From: Patiria pectinifera
Lineage: Eukaryota; Echinodermata; Asteroidea; Valvatida; Asterinidae
Assembly: GCA_029964075.1 (NCBI GenBank)
Contig: CM057142.1
Location: forward strand, 37,016,392 to 37,080,391
Direction of reading: 5' to 3'
DNA length: 64,000 nt
The notes beneath the pieces were generated by a model, which searched no databases, was not told where the DNA came from, and saw nothing but the letters and a program-made list of their open reading frames with translations. The translations under genes and the position numbers were made by a program. Below are positions 22,037-57,056 of this stretch, one piece after another; the stretch's first letter is position 1, and each line of letters opens with the position of its first letter.

Positions 22037-22170
22037 TCCTAACGTGGCGCACTTGAACAAATCCCCAAAAATCCCACATTAACATTTAAGAAATTCTTTA
22101 AAGTTGTTAACTTCTGATAAATCATGATTATTCCAACTCACATACCCAACTACAAGTTTGTCACATTTAC
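22037..22170. repeat. Solo copy of the CCTAACGTGGCGCACTT repeat
   Basis: It is homologous to 33900-34030: it starts with CCTAACGTGGCGCACTTGAA and shares AACTTCTGATAAATCAT-like text downstream. No right inverted repeat is seen here, so it is a partial copy. Confidence 0.55.
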
Positions 22171-22318
22171 GTAAGCCGCATAAATCTGTGGCATCATGAC
22201 TGTACCGCGTAGAGTGCGCGGGGACCTGGCCAGCTGTAGGGCGGCAAGGCATGCACGCGCACGCTGTCAAAATGTCAAGTTGGATAACGGTCGAGTTGTC
22301 CGACCCCGGCCCCATGGG

Positions 22319-22534
22319 TACAAAGCCTATGGAGAAAACAACGTGCACAATGCCTTTGGAGAAAAGAACGTGTACAAACCCTATGGAGAAAAGAACGTGT
22401 ACAAACCCTATGGAGAAAAGAACGTGTACAAACCCTATGGAGAAAAGAACGTGTACAAAACCTATGGAGAAAAGAACGTGTACAAACCCTATGGAGAAAA
22501 GAACGTGTACAAACCCTATGGACAAAAATTGCAC
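22319..22534. repeat. 27-bp tandem repeat, 8 units
   Basis: Eight consecutive 27-bp units occur; the central five are essentially identical and include ACGTGTACAAACCCTATGG. The unit length is a multiple of three, so long open frames of a 9-residue repeat appear in several frames on both strands. They are by-products. The unit equals the ACGTGTACAAA..CTATGG block of the surrounding dispersed repeat (single copies near 21340 and 22681), so the array probably grew from that block. Confidence 0.95.
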
Positions 22535-22765
22535 ATTTAATGTTACGTAACTTGACACTTGATGACGTCATGATTACGAATTTCTTCTAGGACCATCTGT
22601 GGATGGTGGTCTAAGTGTGTGCCAAGTCTGAGGTTGATGCAATTTAAGAAAGTGCCAAAGTGCCCTTGCAGAAGAAAAAACGTGTACAAACCCTATGGAG
22701 AAGAGTCTGAAAGAGAAAAAGAAAAAAAAAGAAAAAAGAAAAAAAAAAACTTTAACGAAAACAAG

Positions 22766-31200: not shown

Positions 31201-31442
31201 AAATAAAGAAATTAATCCTATTAGTTTAAAATGAATATGCTCTGTCATGATTTAAACTTTACTTGTATTATTTAAACCTTTTGATGTAATCCTTCACAGG
31301 GTAATGGGGTATGTTCCCTTTTTTGTGGAATCAAACAAGAAATAACAGTAGAAACATAAACCGCAGTGTCGCTAGTTTCAAACCTAATTCAATTATTTCA
31401 AAGTTGAAATTTATCAATTGATTTGTTCAAATTGTTCATCAG

Positions 31443-31577
31443 GTGAGCTCGAAGAAAAACCATCAGATATTCTTCTGACAGAAGACTTGAAGAAGGTTGT
31501 GGGTTGTGAGCAGGCCCTTCGTTTGACGATGGCCGACAGGGAGTGCCAAAGAGGAGACCACTTCTTCAAGAACATGG
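31443..31577 (+). CDS. Exon A: second half of a TRADD-N-like domain (partial gene)
   Basis: The acceptor TTCATCAG ends at 31442 and the donor G|GTAAGT begins at 31578. The exon enters with two bases of a split codon and leaves with one (phase 1 on both sides), 135 bp. It encodes GELEEKPSDILLTEDLKKVV and ends near HFFKNMG. The frame is closely related to the last third of exon C, sharing LLTED, KK, GCE, LT, QRG and HFFK, so one domain is repeated. In exon C the domain has about 70 further residues on its N-terminal side; here they must lie in an upstream exon that I did not find. The comparison with the TRADD N-terminal domain is from memory of its pattern and is tentative. Confidence 0.6.
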
Positions 31578-31712
31578 GTAAGTAAAGTGTCTGTTAACGA
31601 GAAATATGTAAAATATTAGTTGAGAGGTCACTGTGCATCACTACTTTTAGAACTGACCACTTTTAAAGTGTTGGTAAAACCTCATATACTTTATTGTTAT
31701 ACGCTATTTAAG

Positions 31713-32123
31713 GCAAAGAAGCTCCTGAAAAATCATCCCTACCGACAAGCATATCAAAGTGGTCGAGGACAGATGTACACAATTGGCTCTCTGGAATCGG
31801 CCTGTCCGACTGTGCAAAGGAATTCTATGAAGAGGAAGTAACAGGCGAAATACTCCTTCTGTACGACATTGACAGCCTGCAAAAAGACTTTAATTTTAAA
31901 AAGGGACCTGCGCGTAAGATAATACACTTGAGAGACAAGAAGGCAAAAGGACAGCCTTCAACAGCAAGCACATATTGTGTTGATGATGATCTTGAAAGTC
32001 AGGAAGCAAGTCCTCCAAAGGGAGCGCCACTTTCCGTTACCAATACTACTGACATACACCTAGACAACAGTAGAAATGCAATAATCTACGTAGCGGCTAA
32101 CACGGTCGATTCAAAATCATTTG
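31713..32123 (+). CDS. Exon B: SAM domain plus linker
   Basis: The acceptor TATTTAAG ends at 31712 and the donor G|GTGAGT begins at 32124; phase 1 on both sides; 411 bp. A SAM domain starts near 31760 and runs about 61 residues: WSRTDVHNWL, GIGLSDCAKEF, then GEILLLYDIDSLQKDF and GPARKIIHL. These are the helix signatures of a sterile alpha motif (W..DV..WL, LL.L...DL, G...KI). SAM domains form homo- or hetero-oligomers in signalling proteins. The remaining 75 residues are a polar, Ser/Thr/Asp-rich linker. The intron to exon A is only 135 bp. The splice phases give a continuous frame with exons A and C. Joining to a GTPase recalls the SAMD9 layout, though this is a different protein. Confidence 0.8.
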
Positions 32124-32265
32124 GTGAGTAAAGATTTGCTTCACATATACTATTTGGAAACTAACCATTCCCACAATATTCATCAATCACATTGATAACT
32201 GTAATCATCCATAAACGACGATTCATATTTTTTACGACTGCTTTTAATTCCTTAAATCGTTACAG

Positions 32266-32643
32266 AATGTCAAGTATCCATGCACGTGACTGCAGCTGAT
32301 GATGGAAACACTTTGGAAGCCATTACTAAAGCAGTCTTTGAAAAATTAAAGGCGGCAGTGGAAACGGAGCCTGACCTTCTATGGGAAGTAGAACGTATCA
32401 TAGAAGAACATGATGGCCGTCTGCTTGAAATAGGAGAGGGGTTCATACAGTTGATTGTACGATTTAATTATTTTAAGGGCCTGGATGCATTCCAGGCAAA
32501 ATGTGAATCAGGTGAACTCCAAGGAAAACTCTCAGGGGTTCTTCTGACTGAAGACATCAAGAAGGTTGCGGGTTGTGAGTTGGCCATGTTTTTGACGATT
32601 GACCCAAGCGAGTACCAAAGAGGATGCCATTTCTTCAAAAGTT
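32266..32643 (+). CDS. Exon C: full TRADD-N-like domain
   Basis: The acceptor CGTTACAG ends at 32265 and the donor GTT|GTAAGT starts at 32644; phase 1 at both ends; 378 bp, 126 codons. The split first codon with exon B reads Glu. The product has an early helix (EAITKAVFEKLKAAVE), a middle block LIVRFNYFKGLDAFQAK, and an end block LLTEDIKKVAGCELAMFLT followed by YQRG.HFFK. The pattern of a beta strand, two helices around an aromatic pair, then a strand and a final helix resembles the TRADD N-terminal (TRADD-N) domain used in death-receptor and related signalling. I recall the pattern; no alignment was run. The sequence that runs on past 32643 to a stop at 32897 is intron, with poly-G and poly-C. 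Confidence 0.65.
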
Positions 32644-33680
32644 GTAAGTACGGAATAAATGACACATGTTATTTCCCGAACGATCTTAAAAAACGAGGCT
32701 TGGCCTCGTCCGCTACAGGGAGGGGGGAGGGGGGAGGGGGGAATCAGTTGACCCCTTTCCAATTCGCGAACGAGAACCCCTACCCAACTCGTGAACGAGG
32801 AACGCACAAACACATACACGCATGTCTGCATTTGCCTGCAATCGGTGACCCCCCCCCCCCCCCATTGTCCTTCTTTTGTTTGCTATTTACTTTTTAGGAA
32901 GACCTCTATGTTTTCCGCCAAAATGGCGACCTTCGGGAATTAGACACCCTATTGAATGCAGAAAGAAACTCACTTTGTTTATGGTGTAATCGAGGATTTC
33001 CTGTTGTTTCTCTTTCTCTTTTTGTTTTGTTTATTACTCTCATTGGTATTGTACACGTTTTATCGCGGTCGTCCTCGATTTGACTTCTGTCCTCAATTAC
33101 TCGATGATGCTTCTTCCATAGTCTGTTTCGGGGACTAAACACGAGTTGTCTCATGGTACTATGGGGACCGATGGCGCTGTGGGGACAGCAGAAAGTCCCC
33201 ACTACTCGGTTCTAATTGCCAAACAATAACAAAAACTTTCCCATTACGCGGTGACGGCTCAAACAAGTATGTATAAACACCTTCAATCGTGGGCCCATAT
33301 TGTTCCTCTTTTCTTTGTACTAACTTTTTAGGAAAACCTCCCATACGGATTGTCAATCGTGGACCTTCGAAAATTGTGGACCCTATTGTCCTCCATTGCT
33401 TTTTTTTATGCACATTTTGTTCATTGTGTAAATCGAGGATTTTCTATTCGTCACCATCGATCTTTTTTTTATAGCTCAATTTTTTTTGCAACAGCTCCCA
33501 TTGGTTTTGTACACGATTCCAGTCAAAATCGTCCTCGATTTGAATCCTGTCCTCAGTTACTCGATAATGCTTCACATGTGTGTTCTCAATTTACACCATA
33601 AACATGCGCTTACATACATATGCTTCTGGGGAGTTAGTTGATTTCTTCTTTTGTTTTAATTTTGTTACTATAGTCGTGTT
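32644..33680. repeat. Intron with local direct repeats
   Basis: The text near 32990-33130 (ATCGAGGATTT, CGTCCTCGATTTGA, TACTCGAT) recurs at about 33430-33570. The tract around 33190-33250 (AAAGTCCCCA, AACAATAACAAAAACTT, ACGCGGTGAC) recurs at 34415-34480. Poly-G and poly-C occur near 32720 and 32850. No exon is seen. Confidence 0.55.
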
Positions 33681-34284
33681 CCCTAACGTGGCGCACTTCG
33701 AAGCTTACCCAACTTTCCTCGTGTAGTGTTGCCAAACCTCTTTGTTGACAAACCTGAAATTCATGCAGTAAAATACTAGTACTTTTACCTTTTTAATGCT
33801 TGCTATTTAACCTCTGTGAACAATTTCGGTTCCATAAAATTTAATCCGAAATGCAAAAACGGTCGCGTCCGGAAATTGGGCACAAATTGGCGGAGTGTTC
33901 CCTAACGTGGCGCACTTGAATAATTCTCGGAAAATTCCAAATTAACAGTTAAGAATTTCTGCAAACTTGATAAATTCTGATAAATCATTATTATCTTTAC
34001 TTACAAACCCTGCCAGATGTTTGTCAGAAAATTATTTTCTTATTTTTCGGGGCATTTTCAAAGGGTTCACTTTGCACTTGAAAATAAAATCGGAAAATCA
34101 CGCCAAAATTATTTTTTCTTTTAATTTTGTAACAGGTAAATAAACTCGCGATTTATGAACGGGAGTGTTTAGAACTTGATGAAATGTCACTTTCTGTAAA
34201 ATTTCAGTTAAAACCGTTGCGCTAGCCAGTCGCTACAGGCGAAAAATCAAAGTGCGCCACGTTAGGGGCCGCGCCACGTTAGGG
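33681..34284. mobile_element. Element with CCCTAACGTGGCGC ends, doubled
   Basis: CCCTAACGTGGCGCACTT occurs at 33681 and 33900 in the same direction. Its reverse complement occurs at 34250-34267 (AAGTGCGCCACGTTAGGG) and again, shorter, at 34271-34284. This is best read as one MITE nested at, or duplicated with, the ends of another (outer 33681-34284, inner 33900-34267). No clear target duplication was found, and no protein is encoded. Confidence 0.6.
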
Positions 34285-34922
34285 TACATCAACAATATTG
34301 AAATTTCAAACGCTATAGCGTTTTCCGTATGGGGTCTATTGTCCTATTGTGCTTTCTTAGGACCACACACCTGTTCATCGGTAGTTAATATGGGGACCGC
34401 AAACACTATGTGGACGGTAGCAAGTCCCCATGAGTCGATCCTTATTTTGCTAATAACAAAAACTTCCTCATAACGCGGTGACCGGTCGACCACTCATGTT
34501 ATCCTATACCACTCTGGTCAGGTTCAATAGGTTCCCCAATTCCCAAAGGTCCCTAATTTGGCGATCGTGTATAAAACATAAAAAGTTCATGTATAGTAAA
34601 ACAAAAGAGGGACAAGAGGGGGTCCCCGATTGTAGGCAAATACACAATTGAGTGCGTGTAAAGGAGGGCCGTCACTGCGTCATGAGGAAGTTATATACTG
34701 TTAGGGTAAGTAGGGCCGAGTTGTGGGTATTTTGCGCTGTTCAGGGGACAACTGGTGTCCATATCGTGCATCCCTATTTTCTCTCTTGTGCTTAAAATTT
34801 AACTTTCACGTAGACCTCCCTTATGTTTTGTACAAACACTTCAAACGTTGACCCTCGCCAAATCGTGGACCTCATTGTACTGTATTGTTTAAGGCCACTA
34901 TTTTAAAATGTCCACTACATGT

Positions 34923-35158
34923 CGTCGGCTCAGTGCTACAAGGCCGTTAATAAACATGATGGGCAAAATGTCGTTAACAAAAAATTAGATCTATAAAACA
35001 GTAACTAAAAAAAATTATAAAAAATAATGTTTCCTTATGAAAATTTGTTTCGATTTTCATAAGGAAACATTAATTTTTGATTTGTATATAAAAAAAATAT
35101 TTACTGTTTTATAGCCTTTAAATTTGTTTGTGAATGACCTTATAGCACTGAGCCGACG
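34923..35158. mobile_element. Near-perfect palindromic MITE
   Basis: The element is an extended inverted repeat from CGTCGGCTCAGTGCTA at the left to its complement at the right. Further paired arms are CTATAAAACAGTAA and TTACTGTTTTATAG, and ATGTTTCCTTATGAAAAT around a small loop near 35047. ATGT is repeated at both flanks (34919-34922 and 35159-35162), a possible 4-bp target duplication. The transcript of this intron would fold into a long hairpin here. Confidence 0.8.
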
Positions 35159-35289
35159 ATGTGTATTTATGCGCACCACTACACAAAAACACCGTTAGTA
35201 CTTTATAGTATAGCTGCATATTCAGTTGTTAAATTGTCACCACAAATCATTTATCATTTCTCACAAACTTACATAAGATCCGACTTCAG

Positions 35290-35405
35290 ATCAAGAGGAT
35301 ACAGAAGACGTAGAGAATGTTCGGGGTTCGAACTCGGAAGCAGGCGACCAGAACGGCGCATGTGCACATGTTAAAACGGACCTGTCAGCCCTTACAGAGA
35401 AACCA
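35290..35405 (+). CDS. Exon D: acidic linker
   Basis: The acceptor CGACTTCAG ends at 35289 and the donor GTGAGT begins at 35406. The exon starts with two bases completing the split codon left by exon C (TAT, Tyr) and ends in phase 0; 116 bp. It encodes a Glu/Asp- and Asn-rich linker (QEDTEDVENVRGSNSEAGDQ, then KTDLSALTEKP). It matches no domain. The phase-0 end fits the phase-0 start of the large GTPase exon at 43146. Support comes from splice signals and phase only, so confidence is lower than for exons B and C. Confidence 0.5.
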
Positions 35406-35759
35406 GTGAGTATGCATTCCGTCGTATCTGTGTCACTTGCACTGTGATTAAAACTTGTGCTGACCATTTAAGGGTTAACAAATTAATTAAAAACCCGAGA
35501 TCTATGTGTCTGTATCACTACAGCACATATGGCTTTCCCGCGGATTAGTGTGTACACAGGGAGTTTAACATAATGTTATTTAAGTGGGAGTCCCGAATAG
35601 GACGCCGCCGCTGTGTATTGTGTGCTGATCATGCGGGATTTCCCCTATGAGAATTTTTGTGTGTGTACAACATGTTGTGCAGTATTGCACGCTGAGGGAT
35701 TCTCCCCGATGAAAAATAATTTTGTGTGTAGAGAGCACGATGGAAAATTCGGACACATG

Positions 35760-35890
35760 CATGAGAAGGGTGCATACCTATGTTCCCCAATACCGATGTT
35801 CCCCGAAATCCCTACCCTATAACCCTAACCTGAAGGAATTCGGGGAACATCGGTAGTAGGGAACATCGGCATAGGGGAACATCGGGTAGA
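35760..35890. repeat. Inverted cluster of GGGGAACATCGG motifs
   Basis: Two copies of CCGATGTTCCCC-type sequence are followed by CCCTAACC-like text and then three copies of GGGGAACATCGG in the opposite direction. The cluster could fold into a hairpin. It may be a small MITE. Confidence 0.5.
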
Positions 35891-37690
35891 CCCCCATGAG
35901 AATACGCAAATGTCAGGGAGTCACAGCCATGCGTCCTAAAATGGGCCGGTACTTGTAGAGATTTTGGCGATTAAAGTTCCAGAAATGATATGCAAACTGA
36001 AAATGCAGTCACCGTTCGATTTACGAGCCAACAATAAAAGGCTAGACTGACCCTGGGGTTTCTTTTCGTTTGTCCTAGCGCTGAATAAACTAAACACTGA
36101 TTGGTGTCATGTCCAGCTTCATGCTACTTTAAGTAGTGGACGGACCTTAACCCTAGGATAAAAGTGGGGCAGACCACCACATTTATAATTAAAGTAAAAA
36201 GCCCATTGGCATTGAAAGGAAAAAGACATGTCAGAATAAGTTTGTTGGTACAGTTTAAATGACAGGTTTCAACCATCATTGGACCTTAAATAGATCCTGT
36301 AAAACTTTACCTAAAATGTGACGTCAAATGACCTGATATGACGTCATCATATCGTTACTTTAATTGTTACATCCCTCTCTGTCTATAATATTAAGTTTAA
36401 GATGACTTTGGCCAACAGTTGTGCAGATATAATTGAAAACACGTCACACCATTACTCAATTCAACTTTTCTATGTTACTTTCAACAAGACTTTTTTTTAC
36501 TACAATAACATTTTGTTGCATTATTATTTACTGCATGGGTTAATCGCATGAAGAGTGACACAATTTGGTCAATTATAGGCCTTTAATCAACTAATCCTGA
36601 TTGTAGCAGTGGGGCTTACTCATATTTATTTGGGCTGGCCTAGAACATGTGCCCTCATATTTCTTCATTCACCGAAACATTACAGCTGATTGGCAACTGA
36701 AGGAATTTGGTGACTTTCTTACTTGTGTTTCGGGTCTCCTTTTGACCCAAACTATGTTTGTGGGATGTCCCTTGTTCCTATGCGATCGTTAAAAAAATCC
36801 CTTATTAACATGACTTATTTTCATAAAATATATGGAACTGTGCATATTTTTTTAATTATCTTTTTTGCTTCTAAACTGGGTCACCCGCTAAACTGTGATG
36901 CATTATGGGAATCCAGGACGACAACTTATACGAAAAGCTGTTTACAGTTTTTAAGCATATCTGCACATTCATTTTACTTTGAGATGCATTTTTGAAGTCC
37001 AAGATTTGGCTTCTAAACCAAGCAAGAATGAAGTTGCTGCACACTTGACCCTGACCAACGTACGAAATATATATTATCAGAAATGTATTGAATTTTTCGG
37101 AAAGCGGCAACCTCAAGGGAAACTGCCAGAATATCCTTTATCCAATGGTAATCATTTCATTACGTCATTGCCATATAAGAATAAGCAAACATGGCCTCTT
37201 CGAGCACTGTGACTTTTTTTTACCTGGGTGGCAAAGGGTAGAAAGATGTTTTCTTTTGATATTACTTAAGAATCTATGGCAGGACAGGCCAGCCGTATGT
37301 ATAGGTATATCCGGATATGATCAATGACTTTATGGTAGTACCATATAGATGAAGCTGATCTCCCAAAAACGATTGTAACGACCCAATTTTTGATTATGTT
37401 ATGAGTCGTAACAGATGTTTCGATTCATCCAGCTTTGACCACAAGTATTCTTTGTGTAGTTTAAAGGGACACTGCAAAGGTATAAGACGACTAAACCATT
37501 TCTCGCTCTGCATTGGAACACTCGTTTCATTATAATATATTCATTTTCTGACACCTTTTTTTCATCAGAATATCATCCTGTAAAATAATGTGATATTTTA
37601 ATTAAGTTTAAGTACTTAAATATTATTATTAATCATTTCTGGTAATGAAACCAAGGATTCCTCAAAAGCGCCCTAGGCACTGTAGCTCGC
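35891..37690. other. No gene seen (intron of the gene model)
   Basis: CRE octamers occur at 36319 and 36339. Open frames at 36723-36995 and 36979-37212 show no domain and no convincing splice signals. Confidence 0.5.
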
Positions 37691-37905
37691 AAGCCTGAAG
37701 AAACCTGTGGAGAGAAGACAATGAGAAGAAGTTACAGTTTCAGAGGTGGGAGGAAAAGCCCAGAAGAATATTCTGGGGAAAACCCACGGAATCAGGTAGG
37801 GACTGGAAACCCAATCCACATATTGGCCCAGGCGGGATTCGAACCCTGGTCACAGCGGTGGAAGGCGAGGAAAGTACCGCTACGCCAACCTGACTCCCCT
37901 ATATG
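37691..37905 (-). mobile_element. tRNA-derived SINE
   Basis: On the minus strand the segment has an RNA polymerase III A-box-like TTGGCGTAGCGGTA and a good B box GGGTTCGAATCCC about 35 bp further on. It is followed by a body containing CCGTGGGTTTTCCCCAG-type sequence. The tRNA-like part spans about 37830-37905. It lies in the last long intron of the gene model. Confidence 0.65.
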
Positions 37906-38072
37906 CACCGTACTCGTTCATACAATGCATTCCTTGTGGTCACATATATGGATCGATTCAAATGGATTATGACAATGCATCTGAGGAACAACCATGTTAG
38001 AAACGGGTTTATAATCGAGGAAGAAATATTGAACAAAGCACCGGAAGCTGTTTTGCGTCAACACATATGTCA

Positions 38073-38394
38073 CAAGGGCGGATCCAGGGGGGAGGGCCAA
38101 AGGGGGCCATGCCCCCCTCAAAAAAAAACCGAAACTATTTTTTTTTAATTTTTATGTGACATCGCAATAAAGGCAGGCAATGAGCACACCACCATCTTTT
38201 CCTCAAAAAAACATTGGTTAAAGTGGTCAGAAGTTGCCTCAGATCGCACCACAGAGCATCTAGAATCCAAAAAATGTTCGGGGCCCTTAAACGGGCCCCG
38301 AACCCCACGCCGTAATTTTTTGGACCCACATTTTCGGGGGACCAACATTTTTTTAGGCCCCCCCCCCCGAAAATTTAGTTCTGGATCCGCCGAG
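38073..38394. mobile_element. GGCGGATCC-family non-autonomous hAT-like element
   Basis: The left end is CAAGGGCGGATCCAG, the right end CTGGATCCGCCGAG. The interior holds poly-C, ATGTGACATCGCAATAAAGG and a GGGGCCCTTAAACGGGCCCC palindrome. Ends of the form CAGGGGCGGATCCAG are common in hAT MITEs. Flanks ATATGT and ATATGG are similar but do not prove a target duplication. Relatives lie at 11503-11755 and, as fragments, at 58377-58500 and 58570-58690. Confidence 0.7.
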
Positions 38395-38484
38395 GATATG
38401 GCAGGAACACTGTACGGATTCCTTTTAGGACTTATTTCTGCAGCCACCCTGAGGTTTATTCAGGAATGATGATACCTTCTTTGG

Positions 38485-38692
38485 CCGCAAAATCTTGTTT
38501 TTGGAAGTAGGCCTTTAAATCTAGCAAACCTTGTCTTTGGAAGTGTACGTTTAGCAAACCTTGTTTTTGGAAGTATAAATTTAGCAAACTCTCTTTTTGG
38601 ACGTTATAAATTAGCAACCATTTTTTGGGGGGGAAATATACATTTAGCAAACCCTAAGTGTTTTTGGAAGTATAAATTTAGCAAACCTCGGT
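38485..38692. repeat. ~30-bp tandem repeat
   Basis: About six imperfect copies of TTTAGCAAACC followed by TTGTTTTTGGAAGTATAAA occur in tandem. The last copies end just before the gypsy fragment, and TTTAGCAAACC also occurs at the first stop in that fragment (38991), perhaps by chance. Confidence 0.75.
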
Positions 38693-38732
38693 TTATTGCT
38701 ATTATTTGTATGAAAGCCTTGTTTTTGTTGGC

Positions 38733-39645
38733 AGTATCCAACGAAGAACCAGATGCACCGACGCCTAGCCCAGATACTACTGACAGTCTACATCAAACTC
38801 CTGAAGAAGTCCTAACGGATCAAGTAAAGAACGTGACAGCAAAAGGAGTTTCTGACGTCATCCCGTCATCAGATCTGTCCAGAGCTGCACTTGAAGATGA
38901 GACTCAGAAGATTCAGCTCCATGATCTTCTTCAGAAACCTGTAGATGTCTTCTCCGTCGATTCTCTAGATTTTGGACGCACTATAACGATTTAGCAAACC
39001 ATACCACTGATTGACGACAAACCTTTTGGTCTACCTCACCGGCGGATACCACCATCCCAATACCAAGCTGTACGAGAATACAAACATGCAATGGAGGAGT
39101 CTGGAACAATCAGACGTAGCAGCAGTCTTAAGGCATCTCCTATTGTCATTGTCCACAAGAAAGAGGGTTCGTTGAGGATTTGTATTGATTATCGGCAGTT
39201 AAACAGCAAAACAGTCCGCGACGCATTCCCACTCCATCGAATTGCAGACGAGCTGGACGCGCTTGGGAATGCTACTCTATTTGCAACGCTAGATCTGACT
39301 TCAGGCTATTGGCAAGTGGAAGTTCACAAAAAGTACTAAGTCAAGACTGCCTTCACAACACCTATGGGTCTCTTCAAATGTAACAAGATGCCTTTTGAAC
39401 TCCAAAAATGCGCCTGCGATTTTTCAGAGGCTGATGCAGACCTGCTTGGGCAACCAAAATTACTCGACGACATCATCGTGTACTCGGCAACATTTGAAGA
39501 ACACATCCAGCGTCTAGAGAAGGTTTCTTTCGTCAACATGGACTCAAGTTGAAGCCGTCTAATTACTTCCTCCTGAGGAAAGAATTCAAGTACCTTGGTC
39601 ATTTTGTGTCTTCGCAGAGTATCTCAACTGATCCTGAGAAAGTTT
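38733..39645 (+). pseudogene. Ty3/gypsy retrotransposon pol fragment, inactive
   Basis: The frame carries the N-terminal part of a Ty3/gypsy reverse transcriptase: a QKPVDVFS-type leader, then GSLRICIDYRQLN near 39165, then FATLDLTSGYWQVEV near 39285, the KTAFTTPMGLF block near 39343, and LDDIIVYS near 39460 where the catalytic YxDD-type core would be expected. It is broken by in-frame stops at 38992 (TAG) and 39337 (TAA), a frameshift near 39545, and truncation soon after a STDPEKV block. No LTR, RNase H or integrase was found. It is a dead fragment in the last intron of the gene model. Confidence 0.9.
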
Positions 39646-41870
39646 TATATGAAGCGTCGGTAATACGTTATTGGTTTTTAGGACCAGACCGTCCTTTACT
39701 AAAGTTGACACTTATTCACGCTTTCTTTGTACTTTGGGGTGGCTCTTTATTGAACTCCATTTAATGTTATGATGTATATTTTTGATTGATTAATTAGTCC
39801 TAGATATTATTTTTTATGTCCTTTAATGTTTTCCTTTAATACTTTTTGTAGTGTGATTCAAATTCTGACTGGAGACCAAGGAAGACACATCAAATTTATT
39901 ACGTCTTTCCTTTTCCTGTTTTTCAGAAATAACCTTCAGAACATAGTTGCCAAGTCCTCTTCCCAATTATTGACCCCGACCAACCAGGGTCACATCAATA
40001 TGAAATGCCATACTGCATTGGCGGGATAAGATTGGAACATTTTAATTTCGAAAACAATCGTGTTTTCTTCATGAGATGGAATGTTTGCGTCGGGGTGACG
40101 TAAATCAATATTAGGTTTTGCCCTTCACCGACGTATTTTTTTTCTGCAACTTTCACTCGGGAGGTAACGCTGAGTATACATTGTTTATACGACGGTGAAG
40201 GAAAAACCTAATATTGAATCGTGTTTTTGTAACACACGACACGACGAATTGATTCTGTTTTTACATACACAAAAACCAAACGCTAAGGTAACGCACATGC
40301 AGGCTCCAGACTATTTCTCATTTACATGTTCAAAATTTCTGCACATGCAAATGATCCAATACCAAGGTGAGAGAGCAGGTAGTTCATTTGAGTCCAAATT
40401 TCATGTGACACTGAAAAAGTGTTTAAGACCAGCCACCTGAAAACGAGCTCTTGAACAATATATTGGGTAAACTGTCTGAGCTATTTACCATGGGCGACTT
40501 TTGTCGACAAGAAGTAGCCCCCTGCTGGTTCCCATGGGCGACTTTAGTCGACCAGGAAACCACACACAAAACACCCTCAACACAGATATATTCACTACTT
40601 TTCAGAAAGGCGGCATGTTGATATGTTTGGCCACCCATACATCAACTATATACCAGCTGAAAGAGTGTTTTCGGATCTTTCTATTGGTGTGGTTTATTTA
40701 TAGTGTTACTATACAAAAAAAAATGAGAAAAGTGCTTCAGAAGTATCCACGCACAATTTGAGGTATGAAGTGCCATTTGGTCAGGTGGTGAAATGGCTTG
40801 CAGTTTGATAATTGGGAACAGATGAACAAAAAGGCATAACTTTCTTATATTTGCACGTATGGACTTTATTTTTACATCACATAAAAGAGTAAGGTTTAAG
40901 AAACAAACTTTACACACAACATTTATGATTTTAATCACTCCTTGGCAATGGAAATCTGGGTTGAAAAAAGTTAGTTTTTGACTCGTGCTCATTTTGTTCA
41001 CGCTCTAGTAATTTCCGCATGACTGAGCAAACAATTTGGTCCTGGGGAGAGCCTAGTCAATAAACAATGTGGGCATGAAAGGGTTATCGCTAATTAGTTT
41101 CTTTCTTGGTCATGCGTATAAGTTGATGTCCATGCTTTATATTTAACAAGCTGATTAACCCGGTCATAGATCGGATAGGGCGTATTGTTGGGGATGAAAA
41201 TGTGGGGAGTTAATTGTAAATGGGGGATATAGTTGAGGAGACATGCAGTTATAGAAAAGCAATTTCTGTGGTGTGATCTGAGGCAATTTCTCACCACTAA
41301 AACCAATTTCAGCAAAAAATCATCATTTACAGTTTTGAGTTTGGAGTAATTGAATCAGCTACATGTATTCTGAGCAATAGAATAATTATTGTAGGCTACA
41401 ATTTGTATTGTACAAAAAGTGTGTGTGGGGGGGGGGGAACCAAACAATGTCCTCCCGCTTTAAAATGGGGGGGGGGGGGGCGTTCCTCCTGTCCCCCGTC
41501 GATTTACCCACATGATAATTATGTACCATGGCTACTGTCTGTAAATGTTCCCGTTGGCCTGTTCAATTGGCATTTTGTGAGGCTGTCACATTTGGAAAAC
41601 ACAGTGAAAAGGTTACCGTACACAGGCGAAGGCTGATTGTACAGTTTTGACAATAAATCATAATGCAATAAAACGTGAAGGTGTCATTTAAAATGAAAAT
41701 GTTGAGTGTTATTACCATAAAATTACAAACGGTCTGAATCATGGAGGATGTTCGTAATTAAGTTTCAGTATTGGACTCTTCAACAAACGTAAACTTGAAC
41801 TTCTTACAATTTGCGAGACCGTCTGCGAGGAAAAAGTCGATTTAACTCATATTCAAGTTGGTTCTACCAT
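39646..41870. other. No gene seen (intron) apart from a hairpin element
   Basis: Only a hairpin MITE at 40081-40219, poly-G runs near 41433 and 41466, and the short repeat CCATGGGCGACTTT near 40488 and 40532 stand out. Open frames are short and unrecognised. Confidence 0.5.
40081..40219. mobile_element. Hairpin element of the GCGTCGGGGTGA family
   Basis: AATATTAGGTTTTGCCCTTC at the left pairs with the complement near 40190-40215 (GAAGGAAAAACCTAATATT), with TTCACCGACG inside. Two relatives form part of the composite SINE at 56677-57056, which supports a mobile origin. Confidence 0.6.
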
Positions 41871-42832
41871 CTATATAAGAGCAAGTTTTACACGGCCTCC
41901 GAGAAATGTTTGTTCCCGAAAGGATCCGAGACCGCGGTCTCCCGCGACACCAAAATGGCTCCACGTCCGAAAAATGTGGGTGTATTCCGCCAGGTCGGAC
42001 ACTTTTTCCTCGATTTTTTTGTGACTGCATTTAAGATCGCGATATTGGAAGCAATTATGCATCGATCCTTAGGCCCCCGAAATTATAACGCGACACTAAA
42101 TTATACGTGGCGGGCAGCGAACTCACAACGTTCAGCCTTGGTGGAAGCATGGAGCTATAAACACATGTCATAATGGAAGCAACAGAGCACTATATCACGT
42201 CACGTGCTTGCGCTTCAAATAGCGAGCACCGTAGACCCAACCTCGTTTTCAGGGAGTGGAGCAGGCTGCCTTACGCGTTGCCATTGACGGTTTTAAGCCC
42301 GAAAGTACTACGCAGTGTAGACTTTCGATTGGAGAGACCGCACAAGGCATACTATTATGTAGTCCTTCTGAGTATTCGTTGCACTCAGCGCAGGGGCGGC
42401 CTAGCAAAGCATAGGAAACAATAAGGACACTTGGTGGCCATGCACCATGGAGAAACAATATTTTGCCAAGGTCACCCTATACTACCGTTTGGTGAACACT
42501 TTTGCAGAACGGCCAAGTAAAACACGTAAACGAAACCCCTACGTTGAAGCAGCAAAAAAAAGCCAGCACGGGGGCGGCCAGGCAGTCAACGTGAAAGCGC
42601 ACACGACGGCAAATTCCTGTGCAACTACGCAGTCACGAAAAATCGACGAAACGGATCGCCGGTCCGTTCGGGAAAATTAGGACGACCCGAAGTGTCCGAC
42701 CCGGCGAAAGACACCCTCCGTATTTTCCACGGACTTGGAGCGATTTGGCGCCGCGGGAGACCTCGGTCTCGGATCCTTTCAGGAGCAAACATCATCTCGG
42801 AGGCCGAGTAAAACTTGCTCTTATATATATAG
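41871..42832. mobile_element. Foldback-like element with ~150-bp inverted repeats
   Basis: The left arm (41871-42015) starts CTATATAAGAGCAAGTTTTA and includes GGCCTCCGAGA, AAGGATCCGAGACCG, GTCTCCCGCG and GGTCGGACACTT. The right arm (about 42685-42832) carries the same blocks reversed. The centre encodes nothing recognisable. No target duplication was found. It lies 310 bp before the GTPase exon. Confidence 0.75.
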
Positions 42833-43145
42833 ATACACAGGGAATCACAATAGCAAACCGGATATCCACAATATAAATGACATAAATATTTCCCTGCGTA
42901 AGTAAATGAACTAAAAAAGAGAGAAATAAATTCGAATTAAGTACAAGGAGGTATAATCTGAACTGCAGGACTATATAAAAATGCCTTTTGACCAAAAACT
43001 TCTTTCTTACATATTGTAAGTCATAGTTAGTTGACGGTAAGATTTCAATTACATCTAATGAGGAATTTGGGTTGCACTCAAGTAATGACTAAATCGAATT
43101 TCGGTTCCCATAATTTTTATCATATTATGTTCTTGGTCTTTTTAG

Positions 43146-44894
43146 GTTAAGTCCGAGCATAGCGTCTTCACCATGAGTACCGCCAGCTCCAGTGACAGCC
43201 CGCCAAGTGTACTCAGGTATGCAAAACAGCTTGCCCATCAATGCACCCCAATTGTTTCTTCAAAAGCTGGGCACCCGGATGTTTTTGTGGTTCCTTTGAA
43301 GAAGATGAAGTCAGTTTCGTCGTCACAAAAAATCCGTAGTTATAGTTGCGGTGTGCCATCAAGGATGCCCTTGCCTCACAAGGTAATAATAGTCGTTGGT
43401 GCTACAGGCACCGGCAAGAGTACCCTAATCAATGCGATGGCCAATTACACCTTAGGGGTGAAGTGGGAAGATAACTTCAGATTCAAGCTGGTAGATGAAC
43501 GAGGGGAAGCGTCTGGATCACAGGCTCATAGCCAAACACAAAATATAACATCGTACACAATCCACAGTAATGATCAAATCAACATTCCCTACACGTTGAC
43601 AATCATTGACTCGCCAGGGTTTGGGGATACTAGAGGTATTGAGCACGATAAAGCTATTGCTGAACAGATCCGGGAGTTTTTCTCTCACCGTGAAACCCAT
43701 GGTGTGGATCACATTGATGCTGTAGGTTTCGTTGTTCAGGCTTCACAAGCACGTCTCACCCCGACACAGAGATATGTCTTTGAGTCAATTCTTGCCATTT
43801 TTGGTAAGGATATTGAGCCAAATATATTGCTGCTGATCACCTACTGTGACGGGCAAACACCGAAAGTCCTCGAGGCAGTTAAAGAGGCAAAGTTACCTTT
43901 CGGTAATACGTTTAAATTCAACAACTCGGCACTGTTTGCTAGTCAAGGAGATGGTGGATGGTCGTTTGCTGCAATGTTCTGGCAAATGGGGTATGAAAGT
44001 ATGAATGCGTTTTTCAATACTCTTGAGGACCTACAGCCGCAAAGTCTTAGTCTCACAATAGAAGTTCTGAACGAACGAAAATGTCTGGAGATTGCTCTGA
44101 AAGGGTTGCAACCTCAGATTCAGTTCGCTTGTGAACAGAGGGAGCAGTTAAATAAAGATAAACAAATGCTTAAAAAGCATGAAAAGGATATAGAGGCAAA
44201 TAAGTCTTTCGAATACGTGGGTAAAGTTCCAAAGCTTACACAAATTGGACATGAGGGCAACTGCTCCACAAATTGTCCCAAATGCCTCTACACCTGCCAT
44301 CACCCATGTACCTTAAGTCCAACAACGTTTTTTTGCCATGCAATGAGCTGGATAGGCTATTGCACTGTGTGCCCTGGCAAGTGTTCCTCGAGTGCCCACG
44401 TTCACGAGAACTTTAGGTATGAGTGGAATATGGTAAAAGAGAAACAGACGTACGCTGACATCGAGAACCGATACAGAGACGCACAGGGTCGAAAACAAAC
44501 CCTTGAAGAAGTGATCAAGAAAGTCGAAGCTGATCTAGTTAAATCAGAAGCTGCTGTGTCTGAGTTGATCGATGAGTCTCACCGTTGTACCCAGCGCCTT
44601 GAACAGATCGCCCTCAAGCCTAATCCCGTAGGAGTAATAGAGTACCTAGACCTGTTGATTGAATCAGAGAAAGCAACAAAAAACAAAGATTGGCAGAAGA
44701 GAGTTGTGAATCTGGAAAATGCAAAAAAACGAGAAAAGACGAAGGCTGCAGTCAAAAATGAAACTGCATCGGGCAATAGTCCGAGCAGAGACGCACATGA
44801 TCAAAAACATAGCTCTGAAGGAATAACCGAGAAAGCTGAATCGGGGACTAGCTGGGGCATGTTTTGGAGAAAAATAAGAGGCCCATTTCGGTAA
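43146..44894 (+). CDS. Large P-loop GTPase with Cys/His cluster (terminal exon)
   Basis: The frame is open from the acceptor at 43145 (TCTTGGTCTTTTTAG) to TAA at 44892; an ATG with A at -3 lies at 43173 (573 residues). From that Met: P-loop GATGTGKST at 76-84, G3 motif DSPGFGDT at 146-153, and a G4-like TYCDG at 223-227 in place of TKxD. A Cys/His-rich block at 360-411 (CPKCLYTCHHPC, CTVCPGKC) probably binds zinc. Coiled-coil-like helices lie at about 297-345 and 412-480, and the C-terminal tail is basic. The layout matches a family of AIG1/septin-like GTPases known in fish and invertebrates, often expanded. The function is unknown; it probably acts as a nucleotide-switched oligomer in the cytosol. 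The phase-0 start fits exon D, but the exon could be a separate gene. I saw no AATAAA or ATTAAA in the next 1 kb. Confidence 0.92.
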   Translation, partial: VKSEHSVFTMSTASSSDSPPSVLRYAKQLAHQCTPIVSSKAGHPDVFVVPLKKMKSVSSSQKIRSYSCGVPSRMPLPHKVIIVVGATGTGKSTLINAMANYTLGVKWEDNFRFKLVDERGEASGSQAHSQTQNITSYTIHSNDQINIPYTLTIIDSPGFGDTRGIEHDKAIAEQIREFFSHRETHGVDHIDAVGFVVQASQARLTPTQRYVFESILAIFGKDIEPNILLLITYCDGQTPKVLEAVKEAKLPFGNTFKFNNSALFASQGDGGWSFAAMFWQMGYESMNAFFNTLEDLQPQSLSLTIEVLNERKCLEIALKGLQPQIQFACEQREQLNKDKQMLKKHEKDIEANKSFEYVGKVPKLTQIGHEGNCSTNCPKCLYTCHHPCTLSPTTFFCHAMSWIGYCTVCPGKCSSSAHVHENFRYEWNMVKEKQTYADIENRYRDAQGRKQTLEEVIKKVEADLVKSEAAVSELIDESHRCTQRLEQIALKPNPVGVIEYLDLLIESEKATKNKDWQKRVVNLENAKKREKTKAAVKNETASGNSPSRDAHDQKHSSEGITEKAESGTSWGMFWRKIRGPFR

Positions 44895-56676: not shown

Positions 56677-57056
56677 AGATGGAATTTCGCGTCGGGGTGA
56701 TATAAATCAAATTAGGTTTTGATTGCCATGCACCGACGTTTTTAACCACTGTATTACCTCCCGAGTGAAGGTTGGAAAAATCACTTTGGTGGGACTCGAA
56801 CCCACGACCTCCTGCTTTCTAGTGCAGATGTCTTACCACTCGACCACCGAGCTAACGGGATCGGTTGGCCGGTTCGAATCTGATGTACATAGCAGCGGGT
56901 ACCGCATAAACTATTATAAGATGGAATTTTGCGTCGGGGTGATATAAATCAAATTAGGTTTTGCCCTTCACCGACGTTTTTAACTCGGGAAGGAGGTAAC
57001 ATACTGAGTATACAGTTGTTAAAAACGTCGGTGAAAGGCAAAACCTAATTTGATGA
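56677..57056 (-). mobile_element. Composite tRNA-derived SINE with hairpin element
   Basis: It is absent at the matching place in copy 1 (about 7260). Two copies of GCGTCGGGGTGATATAAATC lie at 56691 and 56930. Between them, on the minus strand at about 56788-56866, is a tRNA-like unit with an A box TGGTCGAGTGG and a perfect B box GGTTCGAGTCC. The right part forms a hairpin of nearly 40 bp per arm around CTCGGGAAGGAGGTAAC. It is inserted in an ATT microsatellite. Confidence 0.75.

Follow-up and report, generated by a model that had tools for sequence, protein, structure and literature searches.

A TRADD-N/SAM gene and a septin/AIG1-like GTPase in the sea star Patiria pectinifera, probably two neighbouring genes and not one fusion

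According to the main text of Kaur et al. (2021, eLife, PMC8195603), expansions of the TRADD-N domain are restricted to marine species, the domain is proposed to bridge flanking domains, rearranged on signalling, and its fusion to an AIG GTPase is known in marine invertebrates. For a second family of interest here, the consulted sections of Mekhedov et al. (2017, PMC5445408) state that, within the SAMD9 family, the SAM domain is limited to vertebrates. We analyzed a stretch of 64,000 nucleotides of the sea star Patiria pectinifera (assembly GCA_029964075.1, contig CM057142.1; C14:37016392-37080391, forward strand), hereafter called the window, part of a genome that spans 613.5 Mb and 1020 contigs. 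An initial annotation had read five exons of the window as one protein, with a repeated TRADD-N-like domain, a SAM domain and an AIG1/septin-like GTPase carrying a Cys/His cluster. It did not know of this architecture, of which the TRADD-N to AIG GTPase fusion had already been reported. Our reading of the sequence is that the parts probably belong to two separate neighbouring genes, and the evidence favours placing both in known, fast-evolving families.

The junction between exon C and the GTPase

Exons A (31443..31577), B (31713..32123) and C (32266..32643) lie on the forward strand, as does the GTPase exon (43146..44894), 10.5 kb further on. Each of A, B and C needs two bases to complete a codon at its start and leaves one at its end, so that the three can be joined in frame. 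This part of the initial five-exon chain stands, and the step to the GTPase is not confirmed: exon C leaves one base, the GTPase exon starts with GTTAAG, and the direct splice gives T|GT TAA, a stop. An exon of phase 1-to-0 would be needed between the two. A scan with a loose splice filter, approximate splice weights and a score threshold of 3 returned 20 such candidates. There were 8 to 24 for the other eight phase combinations on the forward strand, and 12 to 24 on the reverse strand; hence, the in-phase fillers are no more numerous than expected by chance. The acceptor of exon B scored 2.3, under the threshold, and the scan could therefore miss a true exon.

The initial annotation left its fourth exon unnamed, and likely meant the phase 1-to-0 candidate at 38735..38823 (+). 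Rather than an exon of the gene, this segment is probably a piece of a retroelement frame. The open frame around it continues, with one TAG on the way, as far as a reverse-transcriptase fragment left by a broken retroelement (38995..39336, +; RVT_1 E 1.5e-6, 28.5 bits, just under the cut-off of 29.6). From its position, we take the segment to be, probably, retroelement polyprotein. No second copy of 38737-38991 was found within the 260 kb examined. The remnant as a whole (38735-39336) contains stops and sits between the two gene parts.

The start of the GTPase argues for a gene of its own. After the acceptor (TTTTTAG|GTTAAG) and a leader of 27 nt comes an ATG preceded by ACC (context ACCATGA), which opens a coding sequence of 573 aa plus stop (43173..44894, +). 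An ATG in the GTPase frame is found 18-31 nt past the acceptor in 12 of the 15 paralogues on the same chromosome; these include L033, which has one stop inside its match. At L031 and L036 the usual place is taken by ACG and an ATG stands three codons upstream in the same exon, while at L034 the ATG comes 26 nt past the acceptor with a broken frame. Some leaders do not keep the reading frame: at L041 acceptor and ATG are separated by an in-frame TGA, and the spacing is not divisible by three at L041 (22 nt), L045 (31 nt) and probably L033 (22 nt, if its acceptor is rightly placed). Such a start pattern is what a 5' leader that undergoes splicing would show, rather than a coding exon.

Further upstream, between exon C and the GTPase, the window shares collinear non-coding blocks (40390..40487, +; 93% identity over 44 bp and 78% over 67 bp) with the region upstream of L032, the next GTPase upstream. 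The blocks may serve the GTPase gene as promoter or leader, or they may be a repeat. No TRADD-N or SAM was found in the ~6 kb upstream of L032. Two other resemblances, between window 33.04-33.62 kb and the sequence 5' of L031 and L036 and between window 30.00-30.10 kb and the upstream region of L041, recur at several places per locus; they are repeat-like and were not used.

The genomic surroundings point the same way as the start codon. Among the matches listed, the TRADD-N exons of the window are the only ones in the GTPase cluster at 36-37.1 Mb, ~40 kb from L032 and less than 1 Mb from the rest of the cluster, and the closest other pair of TRADD-N and GTPase is ~1.1 Mb apart (on C12). On the 25 kb of contig C747, which carries the relatives of exons A-C described below, the GTPase query found no GTPase at E 0.01.

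The single protein of the initial annotation fares badly against these results. On that view, a small exon that has escaped notice would link TRADD-N(part)-SAM-TRADD-N to the GTPase, and the product would combine a scaffold with a nucleotide switch. The two parts are on the same strand with 10.5 kb between them, the GTPase has a strong phase-0 acceptor and an open leader, TRADD-N-AIG GTPase fusions exist elsewhere, and retroelement-driven fusions have been proposed for the TRADD-N family (PMC8195603, main text), with a retroelement remnant lying between the parts here. Yet we consider such a fusion unlikely, given the stop at the direct join, the chance level of the fillers, the start codon shared with most paralogues of the same chromosome, the leaders that in some of them do not keep a frame, and the lack of a second case of the pairing among the matches listed. 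A young chimaeric gene, in which a TRADD-N/SAM scaffold captured an array-type GTPase via an exon supplied by the retroelement, would be a single-copy immune switch, again with no second case among the matches listed, and we hold it to be very unlikely.

Several observations weigh against two genes. A terminal exon of gene 1 (A-B-C) was not found. In the window copy, the phase-0 acceptor (43145|43146) is strong and the leader is open (VKSEHSVFT), so that an upstream coding exon is possible. At L035 and L038 no ATG lies close to the acceptor, the shared blocks (40390-40487) could be a repeat, and next to one of the C747 copies (copy 1) the contig ends 1.6 kb past the last TRADD-N exon, with a GTPase possible beyond. 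Taken together with the evidence above, we still regard two genes as the probable arrangement, presumably with no hidden exon joining them.

Exons A, B and C and their relatives

Exon B (phase 1-1) encodes a SAM domain (Pfam match ~31754-31927) and a linker. The domain passes the curated cut-offs of both SAM_1 (E 2.7e-9, 37.7 bits vs 23) and SAM_2 (35.2 bits vs 20.5), as the initial annotation had predicted. The doubling of the TRADD-N domain did not survive closer inspection. When a TRADD-N profile of 123 positions was compared with 2858 frames of the window, it matched exon C (phase 1-1), a single complete domain, over its whole length (1-123, E 9.1e-41) and exon A at positions 76-123 only (E 5.5e-10); no further copy was found in the window, the next best frame having an E of 2.5. 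Exons A and C share 60% identity over 43 residues and are thus related. Exon A holds the last 44 residues of a second TRADD-N-like domain (~profile positions 76-123) and lacks its 5' two thirds: an in-frame TAA (31385..31387, +) stands directly 5' of the residual similarity, and the frame is open from 31388. A comparison at the DNA level, looking for a readable 5' half upstream of exon A, was not significant, as 5 of 60 shuffles scored equally high. By this evidence exon A is not a second full domain, and its 5' part is missing in the window.

The identity of exon C was proposed from the letters alone by the initial annotation and passed the structure-based check: exon C has an RRM-like two-layer fold that matches TRADD residues 15-143. 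Its signature is altered. TRADD-N domains carry a strongly conserved tiny-Ser (uS) motif at the turn between strands 2 and 3, whose serine touches the MATH domain in the TRADD-TRAF2 complex (PMC8195603, main text). At that turn G-S is present in 23/23 relatives in our alignment, and exon C alone has GF (G58-F59) in place of the GS motif. Exon C is thus, at the level of sequence, a TRADD-N homologue with an altered interface, in which the best-known contact has changed, and not a standard member.

Other searches were less telling. Exon C matched 0 Pfam families, and 19 of the 24 alignment members matched TRADD-like_N (PF20694) at E up to 1 (best 2.6e-6). Sequence searches of the PDB gave nothing convincing, either with exon C alone (best E 0.02, an unrelated designed protein) or with its alignment (best E 0.058), and Foldseek gave no match at E 0.001 or better against the PDB or against viral models. 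No relatives were confirmed when viral contigs were scanned with exon C, with the GTPase and with the segment 38737-38991. An AlphaFold model of exon C alone was discarded (pLDDT 42.6). We give hardly any credence to the alternative that exon C is another RRM-like or ferredoxin-like fold and the TRADD-N name wrong.

The closest arrangement in the genome is on contig C747 (25 kb, L009-L011), where two sets of TRADD-N, SAM and TRADD-N follow the order of A, B and C. Exon C is 43-46% and exon B 39-43% identical to their C747 counterparts, and exon A ends at the same 3' junction (FFKNMG) as the first TRADD-N exons there (FFKNIG). These first TRADD-N domains extend further upstream in one open frame (matches from query residue 29 or 35). 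In both sets a further exon follows, 68% identical between the two over 37 residues, for which no match better than chance was found in the window. After one of the sets there are two related proline-rich frames, one of them with tyrosine motifs. The best explanation of A-B-C, as gene 1 of the two, is that it is a partial or trimmed member of this putative adaptor family.

Is gene 1 still working? A sub-case of the two-gene reading, which does not exclude it, is that gene 1 is a decaying pseudogene fragment beside a working GTPase. Exon A keeps the last third only, with the TAA upstream, the window yielded neither the upstream nor the downstream exons seen in C747, and the serine of the GS motif is gone. 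However, exon B is open for 137 codons and exon C for 126, both have usable splice sites, and exon C and its C747 partner differ by a dN of 0.41 and a dS of 1.68. Moreover, exon C departs from the family at 5 of 16 conserved positions, a rate similar to that of the second TRADD-N copies on C747 (5/17 and 4/17), though higher than in the first copies (2/14 and 3/15). We regard decay as a real possibility, if the less probable one, and keep to a gene 1 that is partial or trimmed.

The TRADD-N matches in the genome number at least 47 among those listed, including the two of the window; this is a lower bound, as the listing lacks the domain that adjoins the SAM match in L054. At several places, a long frame matching the SAM of exon B has a TRADD-N match immediately upstream: at L055 (C10:15446300-15451300), on C5 at 4.39 and 4.86 Mb, and on C14 at 19.43 Mb. 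The C10 frame (1531 aa) is SAMD9-like (human SAMD9, E 1.6e-102). Pfam recognised the SAM domain in L054 and not in L052 and L055. TRADD-N is associated with the SAMD9-like part by adjacency, and the two may belong to one gene.

The GTPase and its family

The GTPase and its Cys/His cluster were correctly recognised in the initial annotation. The Pfam families Septin (E 3.4e-8, 33.5 bits vs 26.2), MMR_HSR1 (E 4.4e-7) and AIG1 (E 6.8e-7, 29.3 bits vs 27) all matched above their cut-offs; NCBIfam gave weak generic ATPase/GTPase matches only. The P-loop GATGTGKSTLINAM (43398..43439, +; residues 76-89) includes the G1 motif GATGTGKST, and the G3 motif reads DSPGFGDT in the window and DTPGFGDTRG in 16/20 rows of the alignment. 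In AIG1 and septins the G4 motif carries a basic residue. The window has LLLITYCDG, without the basic residue of AIG1/GIMAP proper, and the TYCD of this fourth GTP-binding motif is often TFCD or TFAD in the paralogues. From these motifs, the GTPase is best placed in the septin/AIG1-like clade, and we do not file it as a GIMAP.

The Cys/His cluster (44274..44399, +; residues 368-409) is a possible zinc site. Seven cysteines (C371, C375, C379, C388, C397, C400 and C404) are identical in 20/20 aligned sequences, and C368 and H409 in 19/19.

How large is the family? At least 38 matches were found in the genome, including that of the window (43 candidates scored), and this number too is a lower bound. 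Among the others, 19 cover at least 420 of the 573 residues (L030-L048): 15 are on the same chromosome, C14 (36.11-37.01 and 53.9-54.0 Mb), and 4 are in long frames on C11 and C15. Compared with ten paralogues of the same chromosome (L030-L039), the window GTPase has a dN of 0.10-0.26 and a dS of 0.24-0.43, with ratios of 0.43-0.67 by a simple counting method. The family is, on these estimates, constrained but fast-evolving. Two of the four long frames were scanned (L040, C11:6.66 Mb; L042, C15:21.43 Mb), and in both the GTPase shares a single frame with fibronectin III and thioredoxin-like (SNTX) domains; L040 additionally has a stonustoxin helical domain.

Elsewhere in the window, a segment at 56781-56853 (-) matches the Rfam tRNA model (39.9 bits) and gave no tRNA with ARAGORN, and a short tandem repeat at 22079-22567 produces long repetitive frames on both strands.

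Possible roles and comparison with known systems

SAM domains self-associate, and septin/AIG1-like GTPases assemble in a GTP-dependent manner. The product of gene 1 would be a scaffold that self-associates through its SAM domain and presents a protein-binding sheet on its TRADD-N domain. This scaffold may be weakened or altered, as the first TRADD-N is incomplete and the intact copy is without the signature serine. Gene 2 would be a stand-alone septin/AIG1-like GTPase with a probable zinc-binding Cys/His cluster. An intron would interrupt its 5' leader, its coding sequence would start at the ATG at 43173, and the family to which it belongs evolves fast and is clustered on this chromosome. The protein is most likely a GTP-dependent, self-assembling switch in defence. 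The immune role, already suggested in the initial annotation, is one that we infer. If these readings are right, a likely false gene fusion is corrected and the identity of its parts is fixed. In this genome, TRADD-N and SAM exons travel together, as TRADD-N-SAM-TRADD-N and, by adjacency, at the front of a SAMD9-like frame. The GTPase, unusual and bearing a Cys/His cluster, forms a clustered family that evolves fast. Both observations are testable leads on cell-autonomous defence in invertebrates.

In a literature search that left subscription papers mostly outside, we found none naming TRADD, SAM domain and AIG1 together, or SAMD9 with TRADD and invertebrate. Among the closest described systems is the TRADD-N superfamily of marine invertebrates, with its NCOA6 and DEDD2 clades (PMC8195603, main text). 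Exon C has the same fold, there are here too many relatives in the same genome (at least 45 besides the two of the window), and combination with other immune-type domains is common to both, the AIG GTPase fusion being reported there. The window copy differs in having GF in place of GS, and in this genome the domain is paired with SAM, whereas the terms "SAM domain" and "SAMD9" are absent from the main text of that paper. With SAMD9/SAMD9L (PMC5445408, consulted sections), the likeness is that a SAMD9-like frame of this genome has relatives of exons B and C next to each other at its front; the difference is that no SAMD9-like part was seen in the window. The GTPase resembles the AIG family of snails in its clustered arrays (PMC7053062, consulted part). 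With septin/AIG1(GIMAP)-like GTPases in general it shares the P-loop, the DxPGFGDT motif and Pfam matches to Septin and AIG1 above cut-off, and it differs from them by the TYCD of its G4 motif and by the Cys/His cluster that follows the GTPase domain.

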